51,309 nt of DNA from an uncultured Eubacteriales bacterium (lineage in GTDB: Bacteria; Bacillota; Clostridia; Peptostreptococcales; Anaerovoracaceae), in NCBI GenBank assembly GCA_902786355.1, contig CADABZ010000014.1, forward strand, positions 1 through 51,309, written 5' to 3'. Shown here one piece after another: positions 27,835-31,524 of the stretch. A program made the position numbers and the translations under genes. The first letter of the stretch is position 1. Every line of letters begins with the position of its first letter. The notes beneath the pieces are model-generated. The model was not told the origin of the DNA. It searched no databases and worked only from the letters and a program-made list of their open reading frames with translations.

Positions 27835-28917
27835 ATGAAGCAGGATAGGTTGGTGACACTCATAGGAGTGCTCACTGTCGTGACGGCACTACTGGCAATG
27901 TCCGTAGGCAGGTTCATAATGGGAGGAGTCATCCTCCTGCTTGCCTTCGGTATATTCTGGAACAGAGGATTCGGCAAATTCAATGACCGGAGTCTGTATG
28001 AGAAGATCATCAGAACAGACATACCTGTATCTGATCTGTACAGAGTCTTCAGGAATATGGAGACACCTCTTGGCAAAGCGTGGATAGGAAAGCACAAGGG
28101 TTTCGAGGGAGACAGCATAATATTCGGACCCAGCCCGTACAAGGACTGTGTGATCATCTCCCGCAAAGGCAAAAACCTGGATATCAAGCATATAACGCTT
28201 ATTGACAATATCATCCGCGCCCAGGAGGACGAATACCGCTTCAGAGGTTTTGTCGATCCGGCCGAGACAGAGGTAACGCCTGTACAGTATGCGAGGTTTG
28301 CGGGCCTTAAGCTGGCTTCAGTCGTGATGATAAAGCATCTCATGGAGATGATAGAGGAGATGGCCGCGGGAGGACATCCGCAGATACCGTCCAGACTTGA
28401 TGTATATGAATTCTATTACCACAACTCCAGTGAAGGCTTCTTCAGAAACTCTGACGGGGACGATATCCTTGAAGTAAAGAGCTCATATCATCCGTTTGAG
28501 GCGAGAGTTCTCGATACAGATGGCAATGAAATGGCGGCTGTTATACCCCGGTCGTTCAATGCCAAGGGGATCATCAATGACAGCGCAGGCTTTGATATGA
28601 CGGCTGACGGCTCTCATTTCGGAGAGATCACTGTCTTCAAGGAAAACGGAATCGAAGGCTTCATGCTCGACACAGATGCGGGAAGATTTACTGCCACTAT
28701 TTTCCCTGCATGTATGAGAGCCAACATCTCCTGCAACTATCTTGTGGAGAAGGACGGTGAGCTCAAGGCTGTGATCGGAGGTTCGCCTAACATACTTTTC
28801 GAATCATCCGGATACTGTCAGAATGACCTTGTGCTGTCCTATGATGAAGACTATCTTGTGCTGTATGCAGCGCTTGAAATATTCATAATGACACATAACA
28901 AGAAGTTCCTTAAATAG
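27835..28917 (+). CDS. Unknown membrane-anchored protein with beta-rich C-terminus
   Basis: 360 residues. Two close membrane helices (LIGVLTVVTALLAMSVG and FIMGGVILLLAFGIF) occupy residues 8-45. The middle is mixed. The C-terminal ~150 residues (ILEVKSSYHPFEARVLDTDG, DMTADGSHFGEITVFKENG, AVIGGSPNILF) have a repeated strand-turn pattern that recalls a LURP-one/tubby-like barrel, though I am not sure. No catalytic motif. ATG starts directly after the stop of pgcA, so the two are translationally coupled. Function unknown. Confidence 0.6.
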   Translation: MKQDRLVTLIGVLTVVTALLAMSVGRFIMGGVILLLAFGIFWNRGFGKFNDRSLYEKIIRTDIPVSDLYRVFRNMETPLGKAWIGKHKGFEGDSIIFGPSPYKDCVIISRKGKNLDIKHITLIDNIIRAQEDEYRFRGFVDPAETEVTPVQYARFAGLKLASVVMIKHLMEMIEEMAAGGHPQIPSRLDVYEFYYHNSSEGFFRNSDGDDILEVKSSYHPFEARVLDTDGNEMAAVIPRSFNAKGIINDSAGFDMTADGSHFGEITVFKENGIEGFMLDTDAGRFTATIFPACMRANISCNYLVEKDGELKAVIGGSPNILFESSGYCQNDLVLSYDEDYLVLYAALEIFIMTHNKKFLK

Positions 28918-29786: not shown

Positions 29787-29815
29787 TTGACACAGGATGC
29801 GCATAATGGTATTCT
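29787..29815 (+). promoter_or_regulatory. Promoter of the SCIFF gene
   Basis: -35 TTGACA (29787-29792), 17-base spacer, -10 TATTCT (29810-29815), about 56 bases before the SCIFF ATG. Confidence 0.65.
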
Positions 29816-29870: not shown

Positions 29871-30020
29871 ATGAAGAGGATCAACACTATCACAACAAGA
29901 GATATGGCTAAGTCACGCGTTGAGGGCGGATGCGGCGAGTGCCAGACATCATGCCAGTCAGCAAGCAAGACATCCTGCAGCGTAGCTAATCAGCACTGCG
30001 AGCAGAAGAAGGAAAAGTAG
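29871..30020 (+). CDS. scfA: SCIFF-family ribosomal peptide precursor, five-cysteine variant
   Basis: 49 residues from ATG 29871 with AGGAGGAC 7 bases upstream. The family core is unmistakable: GGCGECQTSCQSASKTSCS at residues 19-37. Normal SCIFF (six cysteines in forty-five residues) reads ...CQSACKTSCT...; here residue 32 is Ser instead of Cys and residue 37 is Ser instead of Thr. Only five cysteines remain (21, 24, 28, 36, 43). Reported cross-link chemistry in the family joins Cys32 to Thr37. The maturase gene follows after a terminator-like hairpin. Conserved position and ribosome site indicate a real, expressed gene. Confidence 0.93.
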   Translation: MKRINTITTRDMAKSRVEGGCGECQTSCQSASKTSCSVANQHCEQKKEK

Positions 30021-30031
30021 CATACCGCAGG

Positions 30032-30063
30032 GGCGCTGCTTAAAGAGCAGCGCCTCTTTTTTT
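30032..30063 (+). terminator. Terminator between SCIFF and its maturase
   Basis: GGCGCTGCT (30032-30040) pairs with AGCAGCGCC (30046-30054), then TCTTTTTTT. Partial read-through would give much more peptide than enzyme, a common layout for peptide/maturase pairs. Confidence 0.85.
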
Positions 30064-30081
30064 AGTGACAGACAGACCATA

Positions 30082-31524
30082 ATGATACATCAATATTTCC
30101 TTAACGGATACTATATAGTAATAGATGCCAACAGCGCCTCGGTACACAATGTGGATGAGGTCGCTTATGATATGATCAGGATCGCAGATGGCTGTGTTGC
30201 TGACGGCAGATCTGCATCTGAGACACTGAGATCGCCGGAGACCAGAGACAGACTAATTTCTGAGATCAGACAGATCCACGACATCAGCTCCGGAGAATGC
30301 TCAGAGCTTATCGGCGAACTTGCTTCTCTTGCGGATGAGGGCCTTCTGTGGTCCGCAGATCCTTATGAAGAGGCAGCCGGAGAACTCAAGATAAAGCAGT
30401 CGGTGCTTAAGGCGATATGCCTTCACGTAGCACACGGCTGTAATATGGACTGCGAATACTGTTTTGCAGGAAAGGGCGATTACTCAGGAAAAAGCGGTAT
30501 AATGAGTCTTGAAGTCGGCAAACGTGCGCTCGACTATCTTGTCGAGAATTCGGGCAGCCGCAGGCACCTTGAAGTAGACTTCTTCGGAGGAGAGCCGCTC
30601 CTCAACTGGGATGTCTGCAAAGAGCTTGTAAAATACGGACGCGAACTTGAGAAGAAGCATGACAAGATATTCAACTTCACGCTGACGACTAATGGCGTTC
30701 TCATAGACGATGATGTCATCGATTTTACCAACAGAGAGATGGGCAACATTGTCCTCAGCATGGACGGAAGAAAAGCGACTCATGACAGGATGCGCCACAG
30801 CAAGTCCGGAAGCGGTACATACGACAGCATAATGGACAACTTCAGGGCTCTTGTGGATTCGCGTACAGAGGAAGGTGCCGAAAGGCGTTCTTCTGAATAC
30901 TACATGAGAGGCACATATACTGCGTATAATAAGGACTTTTCCAGAGATGTGCTTGCCATGGCAGATCTTGGATTCAGAGAGACATCGATAGAGCCTGTAG
31001 TTTCTGACCCTGATGTCCCGTATGCACTCAAAGAAGAAGATCTCCCTCAGCTTTTCGAAGAATATGAGAGGCTGGCAACAGAGATGCTTGAAAGAGAAAA
31101 ACGCGGAGATGGCTTCAATTTCTATCATTACACAGTCGATCTCACAGGCGGTCCGTGCATCTACAAGAGGGTGTCCGGATGCGGAGTCGCTACAGAATAT
31201 CTTGCTGTAACACCGACGGGAGATCTGTACCCGTGCCACCAGTTTGTGGGAGATGATGAGATGATAGCCGGAAATATCTATGAAGGCATCACTCATCCTG
31301 AGATCGTGGACATTTTCCGCGGCAACAACAATCTCTACACAAGAGATGAGTGCAGAAACTGCTGGGCAAAACTCTACTGTGCAGGCGGCTGTGCAGCCAA
31401 CAACTACCATTCAAACGGCGACATCAACAAAGTCTACCGCTTTGGCTGTGAACTTCAGCGCAAGAGGATAGAATGCGCGCTGATGCTTGCCGCTGCAAGA
31501 CGCGAGATATCTGAGGGGGAATGA
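30082..31524 (+). CDS. scfB: Radical SAM SCIFF maturase
   Basis: 480 residues. An N-terminal peptide-recognition region (MIHQYFLNGYYIVIDANS..., RRE-like) comes first. The radical SAM cluster motif CNMDCEYCF (about 115-123) follows. The C-terminal SPASM/auxiliary-cluster region has CGVATEYLAVTPTGDLYPC, CRNCWAKLYCAGGC and a late Cys in RFGCELQ. It should form a Cys-to-Calpha thioether in the SCIFF peptide encoded just upstream. All cluster Cys look intact. ATG 30082 has no strong ribosome site in the terminator-proximal leader. The stop is followed one base later by the rdgB start. Confidence 0.95.
   Translation: MIHQYFLNGYYIVIDANSASVHNVDEVAYDMIRIADGCVADGRSASETLRSPETRDRLISEIRQIHDISSGECSELIGELASLADEGLLWSADPYEEAAGELKIKQSVLKAICLHVAHGCNMDCEYCFAGKGDYSGKSGIMSLEVGKRALDYLVENSGSRRHLEVDFFGGEPLLNWDVCKELVKYGRELEKKHDKIFNFTLTTNGVLIDDDVIDFTNREMGNIVLSMDGRKATHDRMRHSKSGSGTYDSIMDNFRALVDSRTEEGAERRSSEYYMRGTYTAYNKDFSRDVLAMADLGFRETSIEPVVSDPDVPYALKEEDLPQLFEEYERLATEMLEREKRGDGFNFYHYTVDLTGGPCIYKRVSGCGVATEYLAVTPTGDLYPCHQFVGDDEMIAGNIYEGITHPEIVDIFRGNNNLYTRDECRNCWAKLYCAGGCAANNYHSNGDINKVYRFGCELQRKRIECALMLAAARREISEGE

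Follow-up and report, generated by a model that had tools for sequence, protein, structure and literature searches.

A lineage within the Anaerovoracaceae carries a SCIFF peptide in which Cys32, the reported sulphur donor of the thioether cross-link, is replaced by serine, and its maturase is intact. The Ser32 form is a stable lineage trait. It is present in 79 of the 354 distinct loci that we read, among them the locus described here. That locus lies in a stretch of 51,309 nucleotides from an uncultured Eubacteriales bacterium, which we call the window. Residues 32 and 37 of the window peptide are both serine, so a thioether from residue 32 is impossible. We argue tentatively, at a little short of even confidence, that this is a lineage-wide five-cysteine SCIFF whose maturase would still act, with another cysteine as the sulphur donor. 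Cys32 has been lost across a lineage that keeps the enzyme, which means the enzyme may do something different there.

The peptide family model TIGR03973 matched in 43 of 47 genomes of the window's genus, 242 of 349 of its family, 226 of 247 in an order sample and 322 of 391 in a class sample. SCIFF is widespread, yet its acceptor residue is disputed. Two reviews assign a Cys32-Thr37 link to Tte1186a and CteA in vitro, and a Cys32-Thr34 link to CteA co-expressed with CteB in E. coli, with attachment at a gamma carbon (PMC8326336, PMC8172795). In the reported crystal of CteB with a CteA fragment it is Cys21, outside the reported link, that is found at the open auxiliary cluster (PMC8326336, PMC6231123). 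According to a passage in a 2017 paper, all clear homologs of the SCIFF peptide seem functionally equivalent (PMC5300114). We searched the literature for a Ser32 SCIFF and found none; most subscription papers were outside the scope of this search, so an earlier publication is possible. We know of no mass spectrum of any Ser32 peptide.

The Ser32 peptide and its locus

The features of the locus are collected in Table 1. Direct reading of the codons agrees with the initial annotation, which had placed serine at residues 32 and 37 and had described the five remaining cysteines and the radical SAM and auxiliary cluster motifs of the maturase as intact. The 49-residue open reading frame translates as MKRINTITTRDMAKSRVEGGCGECQTSCQSASKTSCSVANQHCEQKKEK, with cysteines at 21, 24, 28, 36 and 43. 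It scores 76.3 bits against TIGR03973 (cut-off 50) and 74.9 bits against PF13165 (cut-off 27). A strict SCIFF has six cysteines in about 45 residues and an adjoining TIGR03974 maturase. The maturase is there, and there are five cysteines, so we place the peptide within the sequence family as a variant with five cysteines and not as a strict SCIFF. A thermocellin-type peptide would have Cys32 as the sulphur donor, and codon 32 is AGC. For the acceptor, on which the literature is split, Thr34 is present and Thr37 is absent. The initial annotation had also held that donor and acceptor are both altered. The donor half of this stands. The acceptor half holds only if Thr37 is the acceptor; this is disputed, and Thr34 is present at all 354 loci, so the donor is the one partner whose loss is certain. 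No second, normal SCIFF was found in the same genome, which has a single TIGR03973 match and a single TIGR03974 match.

Table 1. Features of the Ser32 SCIFF locus, in window positions
Feature	Position	Strand	Evidence or remark
Promoter-like site TTGACA-17-TATTCT with TG, 5' of the peptide gene	29787..29815	+	consensus scan, 10/12 matches
SCIFF precursor peptide gene scfA, Ser32/Ser37 variant, 49 aa	29871..30020	+	TIGR03973 and PF13165 matches
Codon 32, AGC = Ser, replacing the reported donor Cys32	29964..29966	+	direct reading
Codon 34, ACA = Thr34, unchanged; acceptor according to the E. coli co-expression work	29970..29972	+	direct reading
Codon 36, TGC = Cys36, present in the window; Ser in 3 related genomes	29976..29978	+	
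Codon 37, AGC = Ser, replacing the reported acceptor Thr37	29979..29981	+	direct reading
Intrinsic-terminator-like hairpin and T run, between scfA and scfB	30029..30057	+	13 pairs, 8 G-C
SCIFF maturase gene scfB, radical SAM/SPASM, 480 aa	30082..31524	+	TIGR03974 669.5 bits, cut-off 425
Radical SAM CX3CX2C motif (C120, C124, C127)	30439..30462	+	three cysteines in 244/244 distinct maturases
Codon 369, Val (CteB position 344), two past cluster cysteine C367; best residue marker	31186..31188	+	

The maturase, ScfB, aligns with CteB (5wgg) over residues 1-471 at 520.7 bits. Its cluster cysteines align with the conserved cysteines of CteB, as a SCIFF maturase should have them. Against NF040492, a model for related orphan maturases, it scores 528.3 bits, well under the cut-off of 855. 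The closest known systems are thermocellin (CteA/CteB, from Clostridium thermocellum) and Tte1186a/Tte1186, which are ranthipeptides, a class marked by a thioether at a beta or gamma carbon, and belong to the same peptide and maturase families by the curated models. In both of these Cys32 is the reported donor, whereas the window peptide has Ser32 and Ser37 and the reported link cannot form. Freyrasin (PapA/PapB) is likewise a radical SAM/SPASM ranthipeptide system, but the PapB model gives the window maturase 262.8 bits, below its cut-off of 340, and the links reported for freyrasin are Cys-Asp. The anaerobic sulfatase-maturating enzyme, anSME, is a SPASM enzyme with a reported Cys or Ser target, but its substrate and product are different and its solved chains match the window maturase at only about 57 bits.

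The scfB gene starts 61 bases past the scfA stop. If the hairpin and T run between them act as the sequence suggests, this would favour the peptide transcript over the enzyme transcript. Shuffled sequence gives 1.5 terminator-like hairpins on average and the scan found one, a number that by itself carries no significance. The promoter-like site is weak too, since the 2 kb scanned contained 4 such sites and shuffles averaged 2.2 (sd 1.3). A conserved partner gene was sought by comparing nine window genes with the 20 named Ser32 loci, and only scfB was found in 20/20. The genes rdgB, yihY and dgk (diacylglycerol kinase) and a 360-aa open reading frame each recur in 3/20, and a stress protein in 2/20. 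Two of the three loci that share the first four belong to the window's genus. Many of the 20 stretches are short, so the absence of a gene is in part missing sequence. The 360-aa frame (27835-28917) has no Pfam match and lies upstream of the scfA/scfB pair in these loci. The window has an ABC transporter about 3.8 kb upstream; a match at the 60-bit mark was found in 0/20 named Ser32 loci and 5/58 named Cys/Gly loci, so we leave it out of the system. A search of a plasmid collection for similar DNA gave no match.

Distribution of the residue 32 and 37 states

We read 285 loci found through the family models and the best 80 of at least 592 relatives from a scan with an alignment of Ser32 peptides. 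Eleven of the 80 are contigs already among the 285, which leaves 354 distinct loci; three other repeats and one filler slot were left out earlier. One of the two peptide patterns used in the scan contains Ser32 and Thr34, so the 80 scan loci are not a random sample. All 43 loci of the genus were read, and at least one from each of the 74 genera in the family with a match. Class-level reading covered 108 loci, and most class-level matches are outside the count. The search pattern included residues 21, 24, 28 and 31, and all loci fit it. Four of the 47 genus genomes (G045, G046, G068, G090) have neither peptide nor maturase, and as the completeness of one reaches 94%, both genes may really have been lost.

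Three states account for nearly all of the loci. Cys32/Thr37 is found in 149, Cys32/Gly37 in 125 and Ser32/Ser37 in 78; Ser32/Ala37 and Cys32/Ala37 occur once each. Written as residues 32, 34, 36 and 37, the counts are CTCT 149, CTCG 125, STCS 75, STSS 3, STCA 1 and CTCA 1. Ser32 is never combined with Thr37 or Gly37. Thr37 is missing and Cys32 present in 126 loci. The sole Cys32/Ala37 peptide (L179, genome G748) has no maturase match on the fetched stretch and so does not enter the trees below. Five Cys32/Thr37 loci (L070, L071, L073, L075, L076) likewise show no maturase match within the roughly 3 kb fetched, and their enzyme may lie elsewhere.

The initial annotation proposed an alignment to see whether the variant is a clade trait, and a lineage trait is what we find. 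Ser32 is present at every one of the 43 SCIFF loci in the genus (residue 37 is Ser in 42 and Ala in 1), and also at loci in 17 genera of the family, the window's genus included. The 63 Ser32 loci from the family-model searches are all within the Anaerovoracaceae, and the loci read outside the family (108 class-level, 24 order-level) are all Cys32. The alignment scan adds 16 distinct Ser32 loci among the best 80 of at least 592, some of them titled Eubacterium or Ruminococcaceae. One could still suspect a sequencing or assembly error, which the initial annotation offered as its own refutation, or a decayed gene pair. We give this next to no credence. Ser32 is shared by 43/43 genus loci and 79/354 overall, the maturase is intact, and independent assemblies agree, including that of a cultured isolate, Mobilibacterium timonense (L205). 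Chance and a lone mutation are ruled out by the same genus count. One genome, G230, has two SCIFF genes on separate contigs (L120, L304), and both are Ser32/Ser37.

Residues 29, 30, 33, 34 and 35 are invariant in the 285 family-model loci, so the peptide is still under strict constraint. Within this almost frozen stretch the positions that switch are 32 and 37, and rarely 36. The Ser32 codon is AGC or AGT in 79/79 loci, one step from the Cys codons TGC and TGT. Residue 37 in the same loci is AGC/AGT in 69, TCN in 9 and Ala in 1. Ser27, Ser30 and Ser35 of the Ser32 peptides use TCN only (83 rows, of which four are repeats). Two serine codon families at residue 37 suggest either that Ser37 is selected or that it had more than one origin.

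The lost cysteine is not generally replaced elsewhere in the peptide, as most Ser32 peptides have no extra cysteine and the window peptide has none in its tail or leader. Among 68 distinct Ser32 peptides the core has five cysteines in 64 and four in 4, one of which is cut by a contig end. A tail cysteine is commoner with Ser32 (11/68, against 4/120 in Cys/Gly and 0/145 in Cys/Thr peptides); for a leader cysteine the counts are 12/68, 20/120 and 16/145. In one Ser32 genus (g85, L285-L288) Cys36 has become Ser in three of four genomes, with the codon TCA in one and AGC in two. Cys36 is thus lost in 3/79 Ser32 loci against 0/275 Cys32 loci. A quick tree of 12 maturases places those without Cys36 apart, so the loss probably happened twice. 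The peptide of L293 (genome G071) runs past the usual end into an unrelated tail, which could reflect a frameshift or the edge of an assembly.

The maturase and its trees

The cysteines of the radical SAM and SPASM clusters are present in all 244 distinct maturases wherever the sequence covers them. The maturase of the Ser32 lineage is under purifying selection, judging from substitution rates. Its dN/dS within the genus has a median of 0.046 and a range of 0.038-0.088 (12 of 406 pairs, those with dS 0.1-1.5). In Cys32 genera the values are 0.023 (1 pair), 0.034 (5) and 0.169 (4).

Some maturase residues differ with Ser32, as the initial annotation had suggested they might. We number them by CteB, starting at the Met of MIHK. 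The best marker is residue 344, two past cysteine 342. It is Val in 59/59 Ser32 maturases and in 3/185 others. Cys/Gly maturases have Ser in 97/104 and Val in 0/104, and the 81 Cys/Thr maturases have Ala in 57, Ser in 20 and Val in 3. Residue 433, three past cysteine 430, is His in 48/53 Ser32 maturases, Phe in 97/97 Cys/Gly maturases and mostly Glu or Gln in Cys/Thr maturases. Residue 254 is Tyr in 59/59 Ser32 maturases, and also in 22/104 Cys/Gly and 20/81 Cys/Thr maturases. One tree puts the changes at residues 344 and 254 on the Ser32 stem, with no further change within the group, a result that depends on the tree. Of the ten columns that best discriminate Ser32, five are at most four residues from a cluster cysteine, compared with 62/434 columns overall (p 0.007). 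At tighter distances the counts are four within three residues (p 0.02) and two within two (p 0.2). Since shared ancestry is not corrected for, we treat these tests as hints only. The assignment of cysteines to clusters follows general SPASM geometry, by which residue 344 would lie beside the first auxiliary cluster. The marker residues trace to one or a few events and may be hitch-hikers. No new protein cysteine that could close the open auxiliary site was seen; the sole Ser32-typical one, Cys161 (44/59 Ser32, 19/104 Cys/Gly), belongs to the radical SAM portion and is distant in sequence from the ligands.

A FastTree of 215 maturases (of 254 rows, those long enough) and a quick maximum likelihood tree of 84 of 129 both resolve the three peptide states as three groups, with the fewest possible changes. 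Cys/Gly and Ser32 group together in four trees, each time with full support, and Cys/Gly alone is supported at 99 or 100. Members of the Cys/Gly lineage, such as Gemmiger formicilis, Anaerococcus degeneri and Emergencia, have the nearest maturases to those of the Ser32 lineage and likewise lack Thr37. They differ in keeping Cys32 and having Gly37, and in residues 344 and 433. Ser32 is a single clade in three trees (support 89, 91 and 48/88). A careful tree with distant outgroups makes Ser32 paraphyletic with Cys/Gly inside it, and there a single clade is not rejected (p 0.30). In view of this paraphyly we do not claim a single origin of Ser32, and the changes on its stem depend on the tree. 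Thr37 would have been lost once in these trees, and the Cys32/Ala37 locus may be a second loss. Cys32 may have been lost once or several times, and even its return in the Gly37 lineage is conceivable.

What the maturase may do without Cys32

Serine and alanine have no gamma carbon, and glycine has only the alpha carbon. A gamma link at residue 37 is therefore impossible in 205 of the 354 loci (Ser37 78, Gly37 125, Ala37 2). That Cys32 is kept in the Gly37 lineage fits the Thr34 model. That switching is confined mainly to 32 and 37 fits a partnership of these two residues. Neither decides the dispute. Thr34 never varies, with or without Cys32, and its conservation therefore cannot be used to argue that it accepts the link.

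Of the three options in the initial annotation (a different cross-link, loss of modification with a structural role, or an altered specificity of the maturase) we favour a different cross-link. In this scenario ScfB would bind the leader, cleave SAM and generate a radical within the frozen core, Thr34 being the likeliest site. The sulphur would come from another cysteine, which the first auxiliary cluster would bind at its open site, and a few residues beside the cluster loops would have changed along with the donor. The favourite is Cys28, with Cys36 possible where it is present. The initial annotation had named both. The apparent double loss of Cys36 among Ser32 peptides weakens it as a donor for the whole lineage and shifts attention to Cys28, or to Cys21, Cys24 or Cys43. 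The related enzyme PapB is described as flexible in the order and spacing of donor and acceptor (PMC9413430), which speaks for a change of donor, but earlier work as summarized in a review passage made it strictly Cys-X3-Asp (PMC8172795). Two further points count against this reading. The loss of Cys36 fits a creeping loss of thiols equally well, and the residue evidence has exceptions, since the window maturase has Gln at 433 and not the typical His, and three Cys/Thr maturases share Val344.

One can imagine instead that the cross-link was lost and that the unmodified peptide works, for instance through metal binding or thiols at Cys21, 24, 28 and 43, with the maturase kept to bind or deliver the peptide. 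The loss of Cys36 in the Ser32 group only would agree with this, as would Cys21, 24 and 28, which belong to the pattern found at every locus. The genus genomes without both genes suggest that the system may be dispensable. A pure binding role, however, leaves the kept SAM and auxiliary cluster cysteines and the purifying selection unexplained, and we consider this unlikely. Another scenario makes Cys32 a minor position everywhere. Some other modification would be the physiological one in all lineages, and Ser32 would change little. The published assignments do conflict, six cysteines are conserved against one reported link, and a review passage leaves the linkage of the other cysteines open. 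Yet Cys32 is kept in the 126 loci without Thr37, and Ser32 comes with a change at residue 37 although the rest of the stretch is frozen, so we regard this as rather improbable, but, like loss of the cross-link, as a serious rival. The enzyme could also act on the serine itself, oxidising Ser32 towards a formylglycine-like aldehyde or making an ether link in place of the thioether. All 79 loci without Cys32 have Ser there and no mix of small residues. However, in a core this invariant a fixed Ser may signify nothing special, and we know of no such chemistry for any SCIFF maturase. Among reported relatives, a SPASM enzyme turns Cys or Ser into formylglycine (PMC8172795), and radical SAM ether links are described in daropeptides (PMC9055067), although the daropeptide ether links Trp residues. 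Serine chemistry is in our judgement quite doubtful.

Our preferred reading of a new cysteine donor and the serine chemistry share one consequence. The maturase of the Ser32 lineage may have switched its reaction to a product without a residue-32 thioether, with Val344 and His433 as the record of the switch. We consider this possible, at somewhat under an even chance. If it is true, Cys/Thr, Cys/Gly and Ser/Ser are three chemistries of one enzyme family on nearly one peptide. The three natural states, with no need for engineering, also separate the two published acceptor models. Peptides of the Gly37 lineage retain both Cys32 and Thr34 but offer no gamma carbon at position 37, and in the Ser32 lineage Thr34 and the enzyme are retained but residue 32 has no thiol.

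It must be added that four loci (L007, L187, L190, L192), from four genera in four families, have two leader-core units in one open reading frame, and all of them are Cys32/Gly37.
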